From positions 1-45,860 of IMG/VR virus record IMGVR_UViG_3300033153_002571: 45,860 nucleotides of DNA; one strand, 5' to 3'. The notes below the pieces were generated by a model. It made no database searches and had not been told where the DNA came from. It saw only the letters and a program-made list of their open reading frames with translations. A program made the translations under genes and the position numbers. The DNA is from a virus. This document shows positions 3,373 through 29,444 of the stretch, in pieces (the first letter of the stretch is position 1; each line of letters begins with the position of its first letter).

Positions 3373-3582
3373 ATGACACTAACACAAGCAATCGAAAAAT
3401 CAAAAATCAGTAAGTCTGCCATAGCAAAATACGCAGGGATAAGTAGAACCAGATTAGAAGCTATAATATTCAAACCGTACCGCTCGAAACTTGAAGAGTT
3501 GTGGAAAATAGCGGATGGTATCGGAATAGATTTTATTGTGGCCCAGGCTGGATTTGATTTTCACATTAAACGGAGGAGGTAA
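3373..3582 (+). CDS. small helix-turn-helix protein
   Basis: A 69-residue XRE-like protein. The helix-turn-helix segment is at residues 11-35 (ISKSAIAKYAGISRTRLEAI), followed by LEELWKIADGIGIDF, which fits the last helices of a Cro/cI-type domain. The C-terminus is basic (IKRRR). There is no second domain, so it is more like a Cro or an accessory regulator than a cI-type repressor. Confidence 0.65.
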   Translation: MTLTQAIEKSKISKSAIAKYAGISRTRLEAIIFKPYRSKLEELWKIADGIGIDFIVAQAGFDFHIKRRR

Positions 3583-11516: not shown

Positions 11517-11741
11517 CTAAAGCACATTCTTTACATATTCATCAGTATTATTTTCTATATAGTCAAAAGTCGCATTGACTACAGTATCAGCATTGGTATA
11601 GACAGAACCACCCAGTATCTCGCTACACCACCCGTTCAAAAAGATATACTTGTCAATAAGATGCCTATGTTTATTCGTTATAACCAAAGCGTCATGTCCT
11701 CCCTCTAGCAGTTCAATTGCTTTTTTCTTTAAGTTGCTCAT
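11517..11741 (-). CDS. hypothetical protein, first gene of the leftward operon
   Basis: A 74-residue protein with SD CGGAGGGT before the ATG at 11741. The N-terminus (LKKKAIELLEGGHDALVI) is helical. No family is recognised. Transcribed from the promoter at 11771-11799 with a short leader. Confidence 0.6.
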   Translation of the reverse strand: MSNLKKKAIELLEGGHDALVITNKHRHLIDKYIFLNGWCSEILGGSVYTNADTVVNATFDYIENNTDEYVKNVL

Positions 11742-11770
11742 CTCTACCCTCCGTTTATTTTCATGCTCCT

Positions 11771-11799
11771 AATTTACAACCTAAATTTTGGAATGTCAA
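11771..11799 (-). promoter_or_regulatory. leftward promoter (TTGACA-17-TAAATT)
   Basis: TTGACA at 11799-11794 on the minus strand, a 17-base spacer, TAAATT at 11776-11771. Drives the 11741 to 9300 genes. The -10 lies in the shared 16-bp element. Confidence 0.65.
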
Positions 11800-11841
11800 G
11801 TAAAAAATGTAAAATATTCGGCAAAAAAGTCAAAATAACAC

Positions 11842-11870
11842 TTGACAAAACGGTTTTTAGGTTGTAAATT
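11842..11870 (+). promoter_or_regulatory. rightward promoter (TTGACA-17-TAAATT)
   Basis: TTGACA at 11842-11847, a 17-base spacer, TAAATT at 11865-11870. Drives the replication operon from 11902. The -10 lies in the shared 16-bp element. Confidence 0.65.
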
Positions 11871-11901
11871 ACTCTCGTTAACTTAAAGCAATGGGGCGGA
11901 G

Positions 11902-12003
11902 ATGAAGCATGAAGATAGATTGGCAATAATCATTATATTAGTATGGGTATTCAGTTTAATAATACTCGGTTTGATAACTATAGTATTCCAAATATTTAAA
12001 TAA
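11902..12003 (+). CDS. 33-residue membrane peptide
   Basis: The ATG follows GGGGCGGAG. The product begins MKHEDRLA and continues as one hydrophobic helix (residues 7-32, rich in Ile, Leu, Val) ending FK. It is the first reading frame after the rightward promoter. The topology suits a small single-pass inner-membrane peptide; role unknown. Confidence 0.5.
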   Translation: MKHEDRLAIIIILVWVFSLIILGLITIVFQIFK

Positions 12004-12019
12004 ACAAGGAGAAAAACAG

Positions 12020-12373
12020 ATGTATCTAAAAAACAGAGTAACAGGTAAAGTAGTTAGAGGCAGAAATGAAACGGGGGATTGGAAAGAGTATAAGTTACCG
12101 ATACTCTCCAGGATTCTTAAATCGGCTTTTATAAGAGACAGAACGATAACCTTAGAAGAACAGTTAGCGAAACCAAAATCTCCGGAATTCAAAATGGGTA
12201 GGAGAGACGATAGAATACCAAAAAAAGAATGGCGTAAGTTAAGAAGTTTATTCGGTGAGATAGGAGTTTCAAGAGAAGACACCGAAGCATTAAGAGGTGC
12301 TGGGGTGGGATGGGATAGATATGTAAGACTTAGGGATCACAACTCACACGAAGAAATTATGAGGGAGTGTTAA
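12020..12373 (+). CDS. hypothetical basic protein
   Basis: A 117-residue protein rich in Arg and Lys with SD AAGGAG upstream. Includes KKEWRKLRSLFGEIGVSRED, possibly a helical nucleic-acid-binding segment. No family is recognised. Early position in the replication operon suggests a regulatory or host-takeover role, which is inference. Confidence 0.55.
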   Translation: MYLKNRVTGKVVRGRNETGDWKEYKLPILSRILKSAFIRDRTITLEEQLAKPKSPEFKMGRRDDRIPKKEWRKLRSLFGEIGVSREDTEALRGAGVGWDRYVRLRDHNSHEEIMREC

Positions 12374-12375
12374 AA

Positions 12376-12591
12376 ATGTTAGAAGAAACCTTAGAAGTCT
12401 TTATTAAAAAGAATATACCGAAAGCTAAGATGTATGAGATTTATAATGCTCTCGGTACAAGTGCAAGAACCTTCGATAGCTGGAGATTAGAGCCTTTAGC
12501 CAAAAGAAGTGCAGAGCAATTGGACGCTCTCGGTAAGTTAGCCGGAATAAAAATAGAAATCAAAATGGAGAAAAAAGATGCAAACAGTTAA
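12376..12591 (+). CDS. small helix-turn-helix-like protein
   Basis: A 71-residue protein. The ATG at 12376 is preferred to a GTG at 12367 because GGAG lies 8 bases upstream. Residues 20-40 (MYEIYNALGTSARTFDSWRL) fit a helix-turn-helix with a wing of mixed charge after it. The basic C-terminus overlaps the next gene by 14 bases. Confidence 0.5.
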   Translation: MLEETLEVFIKKNIPKAKMYEIYNALGTSARTFDSWRLEPLAKRSAEQLDALGKLAGIKIEIKMEKKDANS

Positions 12592-15928: not shown

Positions 15929-18505
15929 ATGACTGACCTCCCTGAAATGGATTTTGAAACCTATAGCGAAGCCGGATATAACTACAGAGAAAATCGTTGG
16001 CGTTCAATTGTTAAGTCTGGAAGTCCTGGACTTTCTGCCGTAGGAGCTTCGGTTTATTCTGAACATCCATCCGCTGAGGCTCTGTGTTTAGCATATGATT
16101 TAAAAGATGGTCTAGGAGGTAGGTTGTGGGCTCCTGGGATGCACCCCCCTGAAGACCTAATTAAATACATACAATCAGGTGGTGCTATAGAAGCCCACAA
16201 TTCTAGCTTTGAGTATTATATTTGGTCTAATATTTGCGTTAAGAAATTAGGATGGCCAGAGCTTCCATTTTGGCAACTTAGAGATTCAAAAGCCAAAGCC
16301 AAAGCGTGGGGTTTACCTGGTGCTTTAGGTAAAATTGGTGAGATTCTACAAGTAGGAGACCAAAAGGATAAAGAAGGTACAAGGTTAATTAACAAATTTT
16401 GTAAGCCAAGGAACCCAACCCAAAAAGATAGCCGTTTACGAATAACTCCTTTTGATGACTCGGAGGATGGAACTAAATTATATAATTATTGTTTAACAGA
16501 TATCAAAGCAGAAGCGGCAATTTCAGCGAGAATGCCAGATTTAACACATAGTGAACTTGAAGTTTGGCTCGTTGACCAACAGATTAATTTTAGGGGCGTT
16601 TATATCGATGAGAAAGCGGTTGATGATTGTATTTTTATTATTGACCGCGCAACGGAAGCGTACACCCAAGAGCTGCAATTAATAACCAATGGAGCTGTTA
16701 AAAGTGCTGGTGAGATAGCAAAGATGAGAGAATGGCTCACTGTAGACCTTCCGGCTCTTGACGCTGATACAATTAAACAAACATTCAAACGTGATGATTT
16801 ATTACCACAGGATAGAAGGGTTTTAGAAATTAGGTCATCCCTAGCATCTTCAAGTGTTAAAAAATTATTCTCTATTAAAAGAAGACTTTCAGCTGACGGT
16901 AGATTGAGAGGGCTATTTGAATACTGTGGAGCGGAACGAACTGGACGCTTTGCTGGAAGAGGGCCACAACCTCAGAACTTACCAAATTCAGGGCCATTAC
17001 CGGTGTGGGGGATTGAACAGGTTGAGATGGCATTCATGGCGATATCCACAAGAGATTTTAACACTGTGGAAACTCTCTACGGTGATGCTATTGGGGCAGT
17101 AGCAGGGTGTTTAAGAGGTTTGTTTTCTGCAGCTCCTGGCCACGATTTAATTTGCTCGGATTATTCAGCTATTGAAGCTGTGGTTTTATCATACCTAGCC
17201 GGTGAACAATGGCGAATGAGTGTATTTGAAGACCATGGAAAAATATATGAGATGTCCGCAGCTAAAATAACAGGAATTCCATTTCCCGAATTCATGGAGC
17301 ATAAGAAGCGAACCGGAGACCACCATCCTATGCGTAAGAAAGTCGGTAAAGTTGCGGAGTTGGCTTGTTTCGGAGTTGACACACTAGTACTGACAAATAA
17401 CGGATGGAAATGTATTGTTGATATTAGTATGGAGGACTTGATTCATGACGGGGTTGAATTTGTTGAACACCATGGAGTAGAATACCAAGGGACTAGAGAA
17501 GTAATTAATCTTAGTGGGGTATTTGTTACCCCCGATCATAAAATTTATTACGGGAGTAATAACTGGGGTCAATGGGATTGGGAGACAGCAGCAGAACTTA
17601 AAAAAACACCATTTAAATTAGAATATGCACTGTCTAAAGTGGAATTTAGTGTTGGGCAAGATCCTAATGCGACTTATAAATGTGTAATCCCCGTAAATAA
17701 AGATTCAATGCCTCCGGCGTGTGCTTGGTGCTTGGATAGTAAATCCATGTATTCCTTGGATGGGATACTCTGGAAACGGCCTCCGCTAGATGATAATGGC
17801 CACACTCCAGTATACGACATTATAAATTGCGGTCCAAGAAGCAGATTCGTGATAATGACAAGTGAAGGGCCACTAATTGTGCACAATTCAGGCTATCAAG
17901 GAGGTTTGGGTGCTTGGAAAGCTTTTGGTGCGGATAAATTTATGTCAGACGCTGAAATACAAATTAATATTAAAAAATGGCGTGAAGAATCTCCCAACAT
18001 CGTTAATTTTTGGTACGGTCTGCAAAATGTGGCTATAGCGGCGGTTAAATTACCAGGAACTATTCAGGAGTTTAAGGGCATTGAGTATCAAGTGCTGGAA
18101 GATGTTTTATATTGTAAATTGCTATCAGGACGGCGTTTAGCTTATCACCAACCACGATTAACGCCAGATGTTACTCCTTGGGGCAAGCAAGTAGATAAAT
18201 TATCTTATATGGGTACTGGGTTGAATAAGAACTGGATTCGTTTAGATACTTACGGGGGAAAACTTTGTGAGAATGTAGTTCAGGCAACTGCAAGAGATAT
18301 TTTAACACATGCCATGGTTCAATTGGAAAAGAAAGGCTATCCAATAGTATTACATATCCACGATGAGGTTGTTTGTGAAGTTCCTGAAAATGTGGGTTCT
18401 GTTGAAGAGGTTGAAGCCATAATGGCAGATTTACCAGATTGGTGCAAAGACTGGCCTGTTAAAGCAGCGGGAGGTTGGCGTGGAAAACGATATAGAAAAG
18501 ATTGA
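15929..18505 (+). CDS. family A DNA polymerase with in-frame mini-intein
   Basis: An 858-residue precursor, about 684 residues after splicing. The 3'-5' exonuclease domain shows DFET (exo I, residues 8-11), AHNSSFEYYIW (exo II) and YCLTDIKAE (exo III). The polymerase domain shows ERTGRFAGRGPQPQNLPN, motif A (CSDYSAIEA), motif B (KKVGKVAELA, then SGYQGG after the intein) and motif C (HIHDEVVCEVPE). There is no 5'-3' exonuclease domain, as in many phage enzymes. It copies the genome with the primase-helicase and DUF2815 protein. The interruption falls within motif B, so unspliced protein should be inactive. Confidence 0.9.
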   Translation: MTDLPEMDFETYSEAGYNYRENRWRSIVKSGSPGLSAVGASVYSEHPSAEALCLAYDLKDGLGGRLWAPGMHPPEDLIKYIQSGGAIEAHNSSFEYYIWSNICVKKLGWPELPFWQLRDSKAKAKAWGLPGALGKIGEILQVGDQKDKEGTRLINKFCKPRNPTQKDSRLRITPFDDSEDGTKLYNYCLTDIKAEAAISARMPDLTHSELEVWLVDQQINFRGVYIDEKAVDDCIFIIDRATEAYTQELQLITNGAVKSAGEIAKMREWLTVDLPALDADTIKQTFKRDDLLPQDRRVLEIRSSLASSSVKKLFSIKRRLSADGRLRGLFEYCGAERTGRFAGRGPQPQNLPNSGPLPVWGIEQVEMAFMAISTRDFNTVETLYGDAIGAVAGCLRGLFSAAPGHDLICSDYSAIEAVVLSYLAGEQWRMSVFEDHGKIYEMSAAKITGIPFPEFMEHKKRTGDHHPMRKKVGKVAELACFGVDTLVLTNNGWKCIVDISMEDLIHDGVEFVEHHGVEYQGTREVINLSGVFVTPDHKIYYGSNNWGQWDWETAAELKKTPFKLEYALSKVEFSVGQDPNATYKCVIPVNKDSMPPACAWCLDSKSMYSLDGILWKRPPLDDNGHTPVYDIINCGPRSRFVIMTSEGPLIVHNSGYQGGLGAWKAFGADKFMSDAEIQINIKKWREESPNIVNFWYGLQNVAIAAVKLPGTIQEFKGIEYQVLEDVLYCKLLSGRRLAYHQPRLTPDVTPWGKQVDKLSYMGTGLNKNWIRLDTYGGKLCENVVQATARDILTHAMVQLEKKGYPIVLHIHDEVVCEVPENVGSVEEVEAIMADLPDWCKDWPVKAAGGWRGKRYRKD
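17366..17887 (+). other. mini-intein (174 residues) in polymerase motif B
   Basis: Residues 480-653 of the polymerase. It begins with Cys1 (CFGVDTLVLTNNGWKCIVDI, block A), has a block B with Thr and His (VFVTPDHKIY), and ends with block F/G (PVYDIINC ... GPLIVHN) followed by Ser as the +1 residue. The flanking host sequence VAELA + SGYQGG joins to a normal motif B. At 174 residues it has no room for a homing endonuclease, so it is a minimal splicing domain. All four expected splicing positions (Cys1, Thr/His of block B, penultimate His, terminal Asn) are present. Confidence 0.92.
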
Positions 18506-18805: not shown

Positions 18806-18834
18806 AACATACTAAATTATTTTATATTTGTCAA
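18806..18834 (-). promoter_or_regulatory. leftward promoter (TTGACA-17-TATGTT) ahead of the terminator
   Basis: TTGACA at 18834-18829 overlaps the stop codon of the fibre gene; a 17-base spacer; TATGTT at 18811-18806. Same -35 and spacing as the other promoters of this phage, preceded by ACC. Confidence 0.5.
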
Positions 18835-23911: not shown

Positions 23912-24009
23912 GGTTGCAAGGTACGACAATAATCAGGCGTTAGCAAACTAAAAATATTATTTATTTCGTGCCTAGTAAACATAAATGTTAAAAATAGTTA
24001 ACAAAAAGG

Positions 24010-24038
24010 TTGACAAGGACTGATTTATTCCGTATCTT
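24010..24038 (+). promoter_or_regulatory. promoter of the inserted cassette (TTGACA-17-TATCTT)
   Basis: TTGACA at 24010-24015, a 17-base spacer, TATCTT at 24033-24038. Gives a rightward transcript inside an otherwise leftward operon, about 45 bases before the first cassette gene. Confidence 0.6.
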
Positions 24039-24056
24039 GTAATTATAAGCTTACGG
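24030..24056. promoter_or_regulatory. imperfect dyad over the cassette -10 and start (operator candidate)
   Basis: CCGTA (24030-24034) and TACGG (24052-24056) flank a nearly symmetrical core CTTGTAATTATAAG. The dyad covers the -10 box and start point, where an autorepressor such as an Aca-type HTH protein would bind. Confidence 0.5.
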
Positions 24057-24091
24057 TGAGCTAATAAAAACTAAAGAATACGGAGTTAAAA

Positions 24092-24373
24092 ATGGAAAAA
24101 TTAAATTTAAAACCTCAACACGAAGATACTGTAATAGGAAAACTTATAAACCTTAAATCTTTATTAGATGAACATAAAAATAATGTTAAACCTCTACTAT
24201 CTAAAATGGAAAATTGGGAGAAAAAAGAGAGTTTACAAATTTATAATGATATTAAAAATGAAATTTCAGAATTAAAAAATGTTATAACGGAGAATGAGTC
24301 AGTATTTAATAGTATCTTAGGGGATTATAATCTAACTGTTACTATGTTTTTATATAAACATATAATAAATTAA
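24092..24373 (+). CDS. small cassette protein (anti-CRISPR-like position)
   Basis: A 93-residue, Lys/Asn-rich, mostly helical protein with SD GGAG before the ATG. Residues 20-75 contain heptad-like Leu/Ile spacing. No family is recognised. It is the first gene of a three-gene rightward insert in the tail operon, followed by a helix-turn-helix gene; this is the classic layout of anti-CRISPR genes in Mu-type phages. Base composition is more AT-rich than its neighbours. Function is inferred from context only. Confidence 0.55.
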   Translation: MEKLNLKPQHEDTVIGKLINLKSLLDEHKNNVKPLLSKMENWEKKESLQIYNDIKNEISELKNVITENESVFNSILGDYNLTVTMFLYKHIIN

Positions 24374-24383
24374 ATAACCAACC

Positions 24384-24401
24384 GCCCTCTTAACGGAGGG
24401 C
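24384..24401. repeat. 6-bp hairpin between cassette genes
   Basis: GCCCTC (24384-24389), TTAACG, GAGGGC (24396-24401), followed by TAAAAGGAG, the SD of the next gene. No U-tract. It could modulate expression of the HTH gene relative to the first gene. Confidence 0.45.
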
Positions 24402-24417
24402 TAAAAGGAGACCAAAA

Positions 24418-24621
24418 ATGAAACTAGGAGAACTATTGAACCGCCAAGATTTCGGGGATTATCAGCAAATCGCTAAGAAACTTGGAACTACGCCTAAAAC
24501 TTTGAAAATCTGGAGAGACGAGGAAATTTCGAATAGAAAAGGTCGCATTATCTTAATACTATCGGTGCTGTATGGTGTTCCGATTAGTGAACTGATGGAG
24601 GTTAAAGATGGAAGCCTATAA
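24418..24621 (+). CDS. small helix-turn-helix protein (Aca-like candidate)
   Basis: A 67-residue single-domain protein with SD AAAGGAG. The helix-turn-helix is at residues 15-37 (YQQIAKKLGTTPKTLKIWRD), followed by ILILSVLYGVPISELMEV, as in Cro/XRE or MerR-like small regulators. Size and position second in a small rightward insert are what anti-CRISPR-associated (Aca) repressors show. The likely operator is the dyad at 24030-24056. Overlaps the next gene by 14 bases. Confidence 0.65.
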   Translation: MKLGELLNRQDFGDYQQIAKKLGTTPKTLKIWRDEEISNRKGRIILILSVLYGVPISELMEVKDGSL

Positions 24622-24889
24622 AACACATTTCGAGAGTCATAAAAAAGAAGGTTATCTTTGTTCATCTTATTCTGGTGGGTCAACTTATAGGATTGAAGAT
24701 GTTACTTGTAAAAATTGCATAAAAAAATATAATAAATTATTTTCAAATTTTAAAAAGTCTAAAGCATACCGCGAAAGGCTGAAAGAAGATATTAAACAAC
24801 TTAAAATTGAAAGTAAAGAACTGGAGAAAAGATACTCTGACAAATTAGGCGAGTTGAAAATTAGAACAGATGAACTAATGGTGCTTTAA
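24608..24889 (+). CDS. small zinc-finger-like coiled-coil protein
   Basis: A 93-residue protein with SD ATGGAGG. The N-terminal part has H...C...C-x2-C (HFESHKKEGYLC and VTCKNCIKK), a pattern used by small phage zinc-binding proteins. The rest (45-90) is a Lys/Glu-rich coiled coil. Its stop codon TAA interlocks with the gp45 stop on the other strand (shared TTAA at 24886-24889), so there is no space for a terminator. Confidence 0.55.
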   Translation: MEAYKTHFESHKKEGYLCSSYSGGSTYRIEDVTCKNCIKKYNKLFSNFKKSKAYRERLKEDIKQLKIESKELEKRYSDKLGELKIRTDELMVL

Positions 24890-25335
24890 CTTCCCGGTGT
24901 AGGCGGTGCTCCGACCGATGCGTGGACATGGGTGTGAAGTGTAACATTTGTAACTGTGTCCGTTACTCCAAAAGCTGAAAGTGTATTAATCAATAGGGTG
25001 ACATTCCCAGTAACTTCTATAGAGCCGTCATTCTTTAATAAGATAGCGGCTTTTATAGCCCCTAACGAATCTCTACTATAAATTCTTTTTTCACCTTCTT
25101 CCGCGACTGGTTCATTTATCGGGTCGATGTAACCAACTGCTGCTTGCCCACCACTTTTTTGTATCCCGGTAGTAACCACATAATCGGTCTTTAGCGGATA
25201 CGAATCATCTCCCGGACTTGAGAAATGCTCAACGGTTTTATTAGCTCCGCCGCCAGTATCTATTTTAACATCTGATATCTCGGCATCATTTCGGGTAACT
25301 CTCAAAAACGATAGTACTCTAGCTATAAACCCCAT
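24886..25335 (-). CDS. Mu gp45-like baseplate spike
   Basis: A 149-residue membrane-piercing spike. An N-terminal OB-like region leads to a triple beta-helix. The tip carries HTHVH (134-138); in Mu gp45 and P2 gpV such H-x-H residues bind an iron ion at the apex. Overlaps the gpP-like gene by 13 bases. The downstream gp46 partner is separated from it by the cassette at 24010-24889. Confidence 0.85.
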   Translation of the reverse strand: MGFIARVLSFLRVTRNDAEISDVKIDTGGGANKTVEHFSSPGDDSYPLKTDYVVTTGIQKSGGQAAVGYIDPINEPVAEEGEKRIYSRDSLGAIKAAILLKNDGSIEVTGNVTLLINTLSAFGVTDTVTNVTLHTHVHASVGAPPTPGS

Positions 25336-26549
25336 GGTAAAGCCTCCGGTATCTCGCCGCTATATGCCCCCGGCAACACTACTGTTAAAACAGCTGTTTT
25401 AGTTTTTGAAGTTTTCCCAAAAGAAACATTTTTTATAATGAAATTATGCCACCCTTGAATCAATGCAGAATCCGCACTAACCCTAATTATGCTATTATTT
25501 TTCCACAATACACCCTTCGAATCTCTCCAAGTATCAACAACTATACTGTATGAAACCATATCGCCAAACATGCGTCCAATTTTAGCATTAACAGCGGTTT
25601 GAGCGTCTGCCTGTAGCGTATCAGGAACATTAAAATTTAACGGTCTAATAACTCCAGATAGCATATTATTTTTAACAGTAAATTGAGAACCACCTAACCC
25701 CACAACTACCGGCTCGATACCTGTAATGTGGCTATAGTAAGCTTGTGGGCTGAAAGTTGGAGTTATAGAAATCAAAGGAGAGACCCCCTCTTCTAACTGT
25801 GCAACCGGTTCCCCACCACGAACTGATTGTCTAAATAGAAGTTCGCCCCCATCAGTACTTGAAATAATCAAGCCTCTTTGAGTTGCTAAATCCGTTAAAA
25901 ACGCTAATACTTTTTTATTTGGTTCACAAGATACCCTATCAAAAACCGCTCCCTCGTCAGCATCAAATTGAGATGTTAAGCCAAAAGGTGCTATTATGGT
26001 ATCTGTTATAGTCTTTAATTTTTGATTATTATATTCTAAAGGAAACGAGCTAGCCGGTGCGTTACAATCATTTAAAACACCTGGTTTTGAATATGCTGAG
26101 GCAACTAAAGATTGCCTATTTGGAGTTACTGACGGATTAACACCCATCAAAGTTCCAGTAAATACATATTCATCACCGATAGTTACTTCGATTCTTTTAT
26201 AGCTGAATGGTTTTATTATTTGTGTAAAATCAGTGCTAAAAGGTGATGAAAAACTTACAGTGTCCATACTGTCAATCGGTCTATTTATTTGTACGCTTTC
26301 CCAATACCTAAATCGTTCGCCGTCGACTAAAATTCCCACTTCGTCAATATCACTTGCATTTGTATTCTGCTTTAAATTTTCAGGAGTGCTGGGGTTATCA
26401 GGAATTAAAACATCTGTTCCAGTCGAAATTGGTTCAAAAATCCCCGGATTCGATTGGATAATTAACGCCGTACCTGATTCGCTCCCGTAGACTTTACGAG
26501 ATATTATATCAAAGGTATCACCTGATATTGTTTTATACGTAGTAGACAA
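25323..26549 (-). CDS. Mu gpP-like baseplate hub protein
   Basis: A 408-residue hub (gpD/gp27-type fold). The N-terminus has a LysM-like segment (YKTISGDTFDIISRKVYGS ... PGIFEPISTGTDVLIPD), followed by a hub domain (VDGERFRYWESVQINRPIDS, FSTDFTQIIKPF). The TTG start at 26549 has AAAGGACG 8 bases upstream and overlaps gpN by 17 bases. It connects the tail tube to the spike. Confidence 0.82.
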   Translation of the reverse strand: MSTTYKTISGDTFDIISRKVYGSESGTALIIQSNPGIFEPISTGTDVLIPDNPSTPENLKQNTNASDIDEVGILVDGERFRYWESVQINRPIDSMDTVSFSSPFSTDFTQIIKPFSYKRIEVTIGDEYVFTGTLMGVNPSVTPNRQSLVASAYSKPGVLNDCNAPASSFPLEYNNQKLKTITDTIIAPFGLTSQFDADEGAVFDRVSCEPNKKVLAFLTDLATQRGLIISSTDGGELLFRQSVRGGEPVAQLEEGVSPLISITPTFSPQAYYSHITGIEPVVVGLGGSQFTVKNNMLSGVIRPLNFNVPDTLQADAQTAVNAKIGRMFGDMVSYSIVVDTWRDSKGVLWKNNSIIRVSADSALIQGWHNFIIKNVSFGKTSKTKTAVLTVVLPGAYSGEIPEALPWGL

Positions 26550-27753
26550 TTGAGCGTCCTTTTGGTAGTTCTAATATTTCACTCCCAGTAAGATCGTTAG
26601 AATTTATGAAAAAGTCAAGATAATTATCAACATCTCCATAAAGTTCTGCAACTGTATCTATGATAGACCTATTGCGATCCAAGACTACAATTCGTTCTTG
26701 CTTAAGGGTAAAAGATATCTGTACAAGAAAACCTGCCGCTATAGCCACAGAACCTTGTAACTTTTGGTATGCCTCACCTTGGTCTATCTGTTCAAGAGCT
26801 GCGAAGTTATCATCTCTCCACACTACTAAGCTATCGAAAAGTGATATGATACTTTCAGCTGCTGCAATAGCTTCCGTTTTAGTATCAAACTCGTTATTTA
26901 TAACACTAAGTATTTGACCAGTTACGTGCGTAGAAGCGTACATGTCGTTAACATGAAAATCATTAGAGTCTGCCGCTGTTCCAGTAGCTATTAAATTCTC
27001 AGCAAGATTTTTATATGCTTCAAGTCTCGCCTGAATACTGGTTAACGCCCTCGCCGGTGCTTGTACCAATTGCACTGTTTGAGCTGCAAGAGTTAGCGGC
27101 TGACCTATAAGAGTATCAATCCCTGTGTTTATTGAGTTATAGATAGTATTAAACTGTCGGGTTACGTCTGCCTGTGTATCAGCTACTTTCTGCAAACCAC
27201 CTTTCACTGAATCTAATGCTCTTGTAAAGTTACCTTTAGCTTTTGCCTGATTCACCGCCCCAGTTAAATCTGTGGAATTCTCTAATTGATTCCCAGCTGC
27301 TACATTATATTCATCTACTGAAGTTTCAACGGAACTCGCTGGATCATCTTGCTCTTCTGGGAATATAAGTTCTATAGTTTCCCAAAAAGTTATATCAAAA
27401 AATGCTTGATTAGCTGCGGTTTTTAAATCGTCTCGTCTGCTTATAGCTCCGAAAGGTATTACATCTTTAACACCATATACCGGGTGCTCCAGCTTTCCGA
27501 TACCGCGCTCTAATAATGTTTCTTCAAAAGCTTTAGCTTCCAAGTCATAATCGTCCCCACTAAAAATTATCCTAAGTGGAAAACGCCTCCCTGTATTCCC
27601 TGACTCCTGGACATAAGTTCCGTTAAAATTAGGGAATTCGAAACCGGTAGTTTTTTTATCAAAACTATAGCTTACATTCTCGAATTGAAAAACTGTTCGT
27701 GTTCCCAAAGGAGAGGTATAAGCTCCTTGTCTGATTCGATCTTGCCACGACAT
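26533..27753 (-). CDS. Mu gpN-like tail/DNA circularisation protein
   Basis: A 406-residue protein. The N-terminal 140 residues fit the DNA_circ_N domain (WQDRIRQGAYTSPLGTRTVF, GRRFPLRIIFSGDDYDLEA, GKLEHPVYG). The ATG at 27753 is chosen with SD GGGAGG 6 bases upstream. It overlaps the tape-measure stop. In Mu this is the tail protein N (gp43), a hub-proximal component. Confidence 0.85.
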   Translation of the reverse strand: MSWQDRIRQGAYTSPLGTRTVFQFENVSYSFDKKTTGFEFPNFNGTYVQESGNTGRRFPLRIIFSGDDYDLEAKAFEETLLERGIGKLEHPVYGVKDVIPFGAISRRDDLKTAANQAFFDITFWETIELIFPEEQDDPASSVETSVDEYNVAAGNQLENSTDLTGAVNQAKAKGNFTRALDSVKGGLQKVADTQADVTRQFNTIYNSINTGIDTLIGQPLTLAAQTVQLVQAPARALTSIQARLEAYKNLAENLIATGTAADSNDFHVNDMYASTHVTGQILSVINNEFDTKTEAIAAAESIISLFDSLVVWRDDNFAALEQIDQGEAYQKLQGSVAIAAGFLVQISFTLKQERIVVLDRNRSIIDTVAELYGDVDNYLDFFINSNDLTGSEILELPKGRSIVYYV

Positions 27754-29444
27754 CAAAAGCCTCCCGAAGGTTGTAATGTTAAACCACTGCCTTTTAATGA
27801 GCCTTCTGTTAATTCAGCTCTTCCAGTTTCATCTTTTATAGTTACTGTACTTCTGGAATTCTTTTCTTCTATACTTCTACTTATTTGCTGCGAAGGGTTA
27901 ACCAAAGCTGGTTGCTTAACATTAGAATCGCTGGTTATATCAAAAATAAATTTACCTAAATCTTTTCCTATCTCATCGAAAGGATTAAAATCTGTCATTA
28001 ATTGTAATACTTTATCAACGCCGTTATCGAACGCTATAACTATAGCGTCCCACAGCGTAACAAAAAATTGTTTTAAGCCACTCCAAGCGTTCTTAATATC
28101 TTTAACTACAAAAAATAAGCTCTTTCCTAGTTTCTCCCCAAAAACCATTAGCAGCTTAAAAGCTGACATGACACCCAGGGCTATAAATCTTAAAAATTTG
28201 AAAGTTTCTATTAGTGATATTATAAACACTTCTATATTGGAAGTTATTAAATCTTCATTTACTCGTACCCATTCTGTTGTGCTCTCAATTAAGCCCCCAA
28301 GAGGACCTTTTACCAAATCAAATATATTAAGTCCAACGCCTTCTACCGTAGATTGAAGTTCTTTCATACTACCGCTAAAAGTATCACGCATAACCGCAGC
28401 CATTGTTTTAGAACTTCCGGCGGCCCTATCTAATTCTTTTCTAAAAGCATTAAGTTTCTTTTCGCCTGCTGTTAATAAAACATTGACACCTGCAATTGGT
28501 ATTTTACCAAAAATCTCTTTCAGAACACCCGCCCTTTGAGCAGTTCCTAGTTTAGCCATTGATTTATTAAGGGTTCCGAGTATTCCGTTTATGTCCTTTA
28601 AATTGCCCTCAGAGTCAACTGTGCTAACACCTAATCCTTTTAAGGTTTTGCTTGCTGCAGCTGTTGGAGCTGATAAAGATAAAAACATATTTTTTAAGGT
28701 AGTACCTGCTCTTGTTCCTTTTATACCAGCATTAGCCAGCTCTCCAGTAAGAGAAAGGAAAGTTTCAACGGACGCCCCGGCTTTTACTGCGACGGGTGCA
28801 CCCTCCTTAATCGCTTCAAACATAGTTTCAATATTTGTATTAGCTCTAACTGAAGTAAGTGCAATAGCGTCGTTAACTCTAGCTAGATTTTTACCTAATT
28901 GAGTGGCGTCTTTAGTAGCTAAACCAAAAGCACCCAACGAATCAGTTGCGATGTCGGTCGCAGTCTGCAAGTCGGTTTGTGCAACGGTTGCTAAATCCAC
29001 AACACCGGGTAATGCAGCTATCGATTGCTCAGCGTTAAACCCTGCCATTGCTAAGAAATTCAAAGCTTTAGCCGAGGCGACGGCGGTAAATTCTGTTGTT
29101 TTACCTGTTATTCTGGCGGCGTTTTCAAGTTCTTTAAATGCCGCCGTTCCCTTCCGGATTTCTCCAGGGAATTTAGCAGCAGCATTGACCAGCGTTTGTT
29201 CGAATTCAGCACCGACATTAACTACAGCAACAAGTGCAGCTGTTAGTAATGCAGCACCTATGGCAGCCCCTTTTGCGAGCTTCATAAAGCCTTTACGAAC
29301 GTCTCTAGTCTTGCGTTCAATATTATTTAAACCTTTTCGAACGGAACGGGTAAATCTACCGATTTTATTTTGCATACGGGTAACTGGAGCGGTCATTTTA
29401 TCGACCGCTTTAAACACTGTTTCCACACTGAATCGACCAGCCAT
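27753..29444 (-). CDS. tape measure protein (TP901-type)
   Basis: A 563-residue protein. The N-terminal helical part (KAVDKMTAPVTRMQNKIGRF) is followed by the tape-measure core (NFLAMAGFNAEQSIAALPG, VDLATVAQTDLQTATDIATD, IKGTRAGTTLKNMFL) and hydrophobic helices near residues 70-95 and 400-450. It is short for the class; at about 1.5 angstrom per residue it predicts a tail of roughly 85 nm. Sets tail length and enters the host membrane. Confidence 0.88.
   Translation of the reverse strand: MAGRFSVETVFKAVDKMTAPVTRMQNKIGRFTRSVRKGLNNIERKTRDVRKGFMKLAKGAAIGAALLTAALVAVVNVGAEFEQTLVNAAAKFPGEIRKGTAAFKELENAARITGKTTEFTAVASAKALNFLAMAGFNAEQSIAALPGVVDLATVAQTDLQTATDIATDSLGAFGLATKDATQLGKNLARVNDAIALTSVRANTNIETMFEAIKEGAPVAVKAGASVETFLSLTGELANAGIKGTRAGTTLKNMFLSLSAPTAAASKTLKGLGVSTVDSEGNLKDINGILGTLNKSMAKLGTAQRAGVLKEIFGKIPIAGVNVLLTAGEKKLNAFRKELDRAAGSSKTMAAVMRDTFSGSMKELQSTVEGVGLNIFDLVKGPLGGLIESTTEWVRVNEDLITSNIEVFIISLIETFKFLRFIALGVMSAFKLLMVFGEKLGKSLFFVVKDIKNAWSGLKQFFVTLWDAIVIAFDNGVDKVLQLMTDFNPFDEIGKDLGKFIFDITSDSNVKQPALVNPSQQISRSIEEKNSRSTVTIKDETGRAELTEGSLKGSGLTLQPSGGF

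Follow-up and report, generated by a model that had tools for sequence, protein, structure and literature searches.

A rightward three-gene cassette with an HTH gene between the gp45 and gp46 baseplate genes of a Mu-tailed myovirus, probably a moron-like accessory operon

Phage morons are independently promoted small genes of deviant base composition at positions where relatives have two neighbouring genes, and textbook morons carry their own terminator. The acr-aca operons are a second described kind of small-gene cassette. Their criteria are genes of <200 aa on one strand, gaps of <250 bp and an HTH protein of <150 aa (PMC9765179), and they have inverted repeats within the core promoter (PMC9410906). 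Among described phages, the closest for comparison are the Shewanella phages SppYZU01 and SFCi1 and the Oceanospirillum phage vB_OsaM_PD0307, the last being a myovirus whose genome is linear (PMC10132091). All three have a tail module with the gp44-gp48 order, and their gp47 proteins are 58–66% identical to that of the phage studied here (66% for SppYZU01 and 58.5% for PD0307).

The window, that is, the whole stretch of DNA analysed, is a virus record of 45,860 bases which encodes a primase, a helicase, a DNA polymerase A, a ssDNA-binding protein, a terminase, a portal protein and a sheath protein. DNA polymerase, helicase and terminase are likewise present in SppYZU01 and PD0307, and the phage is near Shewanella phage SppYZU01. 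It had been described from the sequence alone as Mu-like. This holds for its tail module, which is of Mu type, but the phage carries a replication module of its own, and a scan of a subset of its ORFs revealed no transposase; on present evidence it is therefore Mu-like in its tail only. The DNA polymerase A gene (15929-18505) contains an intein-like insertion in its middle, with splice-like ends read by eye.

Inside the leftward tail operon, three rightward ORFs (ORF A, an HTH gene and ORF C; Table 1) are placed between gp46 (minus strand, ATG start codon at 23912) and gp45 (24886-25335, minus strand). Each is preceded by a Shine-Dalgarno-like site. ORF A and the HTH gene are separated by 44 bp, whereas the HTH gene and ORF C overlap, the start of ORF C falling within the 3' end of the HTH gene. 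The stop codon of ORF C overlaps that of gp45 on the opposite strand, so that there is zero spacer on the gp45 side. When the cassette region was shuffled preserving dinucleotides, only 1 of 1000 shuffles had three or more ORFs that were ≥60 aa long, lay on the same strand and did not overlap, and chance ORFs were thus ruled out as the source of the trio. The opposite-strand gene trio reported by the sequence-only reading is accordingly upheld by the coordinates, the Shine-Dalgarno sites and the shuffle test.

Table 1. Features of the cassette, its control region and the homologous HTH gene (positions in the window).
Feature	Position	Strand	Remarks
Homologous HTH gene	12367..12591	+	74 aa; second gene of rightward replication operon
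Control region	23913..24091	.	gp46-ORF A interval; four copies of 15-nt element
15-nt element copies	near 23918-23933; 23959-23974; 24023-24038; 24075-24089	-; +; +; -	third copy over the -10
Sigma-70-type promoter, TTGACA-N17-TATCTT	24010..24038	+	strict-consensus match; predicted leader ~47 nt
ORF A	24092..24373	+	93 aa; pI 5.9; orphan; 21.6% GC
GC-rich hairpin	24384..24401	+	between ORF A and HTH Shine-Dalgarno site; -12.5 kcal/mol, z -2.9
HTH gene	24418..24621	+	67 aa; five-helix Cro/C1-like; pI 9.1; 39% GC
ORF C	24608..24889	+	93 aa; pI 9.3; Cys-containing N-terminus, long C-terminal helix

The junction itself was analysed in 88 distinct kin loci containing both baseplate genes. gp45 and gp46 were adjacent in 74 of them, their stop and start codons frequently overlapping, and same-strand genes were found between them in the other 14; the two genes are therefore normally neighbours, as had been noted for Mu. 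An opposite-strand cassette was present in none of the 88. Antisense ORFs seen at the junction in L034 and L035 were rejected as shadows of a 144-aa same-strand ORF. Other parts of the tail region were also searched for opposite-strand cassettes in AT-rich kin, with no convincing result. Two distant kin have opposite-strand ORFs in the gp47-gp48 interval (L025, 4157-5130; L031, 10895-11248), signal-peptide-like by eye. SppYZU01, SFCi1 and PD0307 differ from our phage in that their gp45 and gp46 genes abut, the cassette is absent, and the HTH protein and ORF C have no match in them. The gp45 gene of the window appears complete at its end (residues HTHVHASVGAPPTPGS) and gp46 is devoid of a Shine-Dalgarno site, as would be expected if the insertion had disrupted translational coupling.

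Base composition divides the cassette. Against 39.2% G+C for both the whole window and the HTH gene, which is thus at the level of the phage itself, ORF C has 28.7%, and the value of ORF A is the minimum among the 56 listed genes. This split suggests that ORF A and ORF C are foreign cargo flanking a regulator of a type native to the phage.

The cassette is preceded by a predicted promoter, as had been noted, which belongs to a strict consensus class (TTGACA-N16-18-TAnnnT). Eight sites of this class are present in the window and seven of them are intergenic, although intergenic DNA makes up 7.8% of it; six are both intergenic and have their predicted start 18–143 bases 5' of a same-strand gene. 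A looser promoter scan was not above chance (21 sites vs 22.1 expected). One minus-strand consensus promoter, at 18834, reads leftward into ~7 kb without a listed gene on that strand and is a possible start of an antisense or small RNA. The 27-bp dyad over the -10 of the cassette promoter (24030-24056, CCGTA-N17-TACGG), which had been proposed as an operator, was equalled or bettered in 174 of 300 shuffles, that is, in more than half, and was dropped. What the control region does contain is a 15-nt element of TTYCGTRYCTWG type, related to that dyad and present in four copies. Its motif statistic was 51.7, compared with 41.9 ± 2.9 in shuffled sequences, none of 200 reaching 51.7; however, the score was attained by 4 of 150 random 179-bp windows of the same genome and the element was discovered post hoc, so that the repeats are only modestly supported. 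The four copies are regarded as a candidate operator set. Two of them could form a stem-loop 5' of gp46. At 11741-12020, the window has divergent early promoters whose -10 sequences are each covered by a copy of the same 16-nt element, TTTAGGTTGTAAATTA; these copies are perhaps operators of an early regulator.

No plus-strand terminator-like site was found 3' of ORF C, from 24889 to 28000. The GC-rich hairpin that follows ORF A is not a classical terminator, since the rightward RNA has no U-tract there. Without a terminator, the cassette RNA would continue antisense into gp45. The lack of a terminator-like site, the overlap of the convergent stop codons and the presence of a homologous HTH gene close to the start of the replication operon would fit a regulatory switch, in which terminator-less rightward transcription disturbs the late tail operon, with the HTH protein as its link to the early operon of the homologue. 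However, the kin regulate the same operon without the cassette, and TTTAGGTTGTAAATTA is absent from the cassette promoter. We consider such a switch very improbable.

The HTH protein has a weak similarity to HTH_26 of Pfam that spans its full length, and its structure model, of low confidence (pLDDT 65), has five helices. It has a homologue within the phage: compared with the product of the homologous gene, the local score was 71, against 23.6 ± 4.5 for shuffled sequences, and none of 1000 shuffles reached 71. A match in an Ignavibacteriales contig was discounted, 32 residues being too short. No significant match was found among PDB sequences, and the model gave no significant relatives in Foldseek and VIA; Aca proteins were also missing from these matches, an absence which excludes nothing. 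Other HTH genes of the window are three overlapping rightward ones of Cro/C1 type at 1239-2759, mutually related (E 1e-10 to 1e-12) and placed behind a TTGACA promoter at 1357, and a small gene at 3373-3582 that is HTH-like by eye.

When the fold of the HTH protein was compared, the matches were few and weak, and included HigA, HipB and YdaS. They would agree with a toxin-antitoxin or superinfection-exclusion pair, with ORF A as toxin and the HTH protein as antitoxin and autorepressor in the reverse order, as in HigBA, and so would the gene order, a small protein followed by an HTH protein. Nevertheless, the matches are non-significant (Foldseek E >1, Z up to 2.6) and ORF A has no match to toxin families, which makes this pair a quite unlikely explanation.

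The sequence-only reading had called the cassette an anti-CRISPR/Aca-like locus. The layout part of this claim stands, because the cassette is an independently promoted opposite-strand operon of small genes with an HTH gene, and its proteins of 93, 67 and 93 aa, encoded with one 44-bp gap and one overlap, fall within the acr-aca size and spacing limits. Like acr-aca operons it combines short genes, a small HTH gene, a strong promoter and repeats near that promoter (PMC9765179, PMC9410906). Unlike them, it has the HTH gene between two orphan genes, the dyad proposed for its core promoter is at chance level, and Acr or Aca similarity was not found. Indeed, the Acr or Aca identity was unsupported: the cassette proteins gave no above-cut-off match in Pfam, PHROGs, NCBIfam or PADLOC, nothing significant among PDB sequences, and phages, plasmids and kin yielded no relatives. 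A true acr-aca locus, where ORF A and/or ORF C block CRISPR-Cas and the HTH protein is a new Aca family repressing them, would agree with the recurrence of the HTH family at a second locus beside a different small gene (12020-12373). The HTH profile also aligns, weakly and non-significantly, to 5y69/5y6a, which we take to be AcrIIA1. The 5y69 match, however, had an E value of 0.075 (best domain 0.15) and came alongside ordinary regulators such as a LexA-like HTH protein. In addition, the phage has a homologous HTH protein in its replication operon, so that the one in the cassette is not necessarily a sign of an anti-CRISPR locus. The acr-aca analogy is a reasonable one for the cassette, but we regard a true acr-aca locus as unlikely. 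It is similarly doubtful that the HTH proteins at 12367-12591 and 24418-24621 represent a phage regulator family, so far undescribed, which pairs with differing orphan genes and is an Aca-like marker of anti-defence genes in Mu-tailed myoviruses.

For ORF A and ORF C no credible relatives were found in viral contigs, phages, plasmids or kin records, and a distant DNA search with the cassette gave just one 34-base match (E 0.08). The similarity of ORF A to Tenacibaculum phage Larrie (E 5e-4) was discarded, as it spans two separate annotated genes, is 30% identical and is AT-rich. The N-terminus of ORF C contains C18, C34 and C37 plus an upstream H. These residues make the zinc-finger-like label given to it plausible, although all Pfam models were below cut-off, and a regex search of kin for the CHCC-like pattern gave no counterpart. 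The long C-terminal helix of ORF C is confident in the predicted structure and probably forms a coiled coil.

The explanation that we favour, with fair confidence, is that the cassette is an accessory operon of moron-like type, which would be expressed early, is probably repressed by its own HTH protein and carries cargo that acts on the host. It shares with morons its insertion between genes that are neighbours in relatives, its own promoter, as predicted from the consensus class, and a base composition unlike that of its neighbours in ORF A and ORF C. It departs from them in that its HTH protein is homologous to one of the phage's own, in that it is antisense to the late operon and in that a terminator after ORF C is missing, for which reason it is called only moron-like. 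According to this explanation, a Mu-tailed myovirus would have received the operon exactly at its gp45-gp46 junction, antisense to the late operon, and host RNA polymerase would transcribe the cassette from the promoter at 24010 early in infection. The HTH protein may then bind the copies of the 15-nt element that surround the promoter and cover its -10; such autorepression would silence the operon before antisense late transcription crosses the cassette. The host would be the target of the ORF A and ORF C products, for which host takeover or anti-defence is the most likely role.

The cassette is unusual in its position within its phage group, a described relative of which reportedly occurs widely in the ocean (PMC10132091), but it is of a known kind. 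If neither ORF A nor ORF C has an anti-defence role, it would be just another accessory cassette carrying orphan genes. If one of them has, the gp45-gp46 junction, together with the HTH family, would be a handle for finding more such genes in this group.
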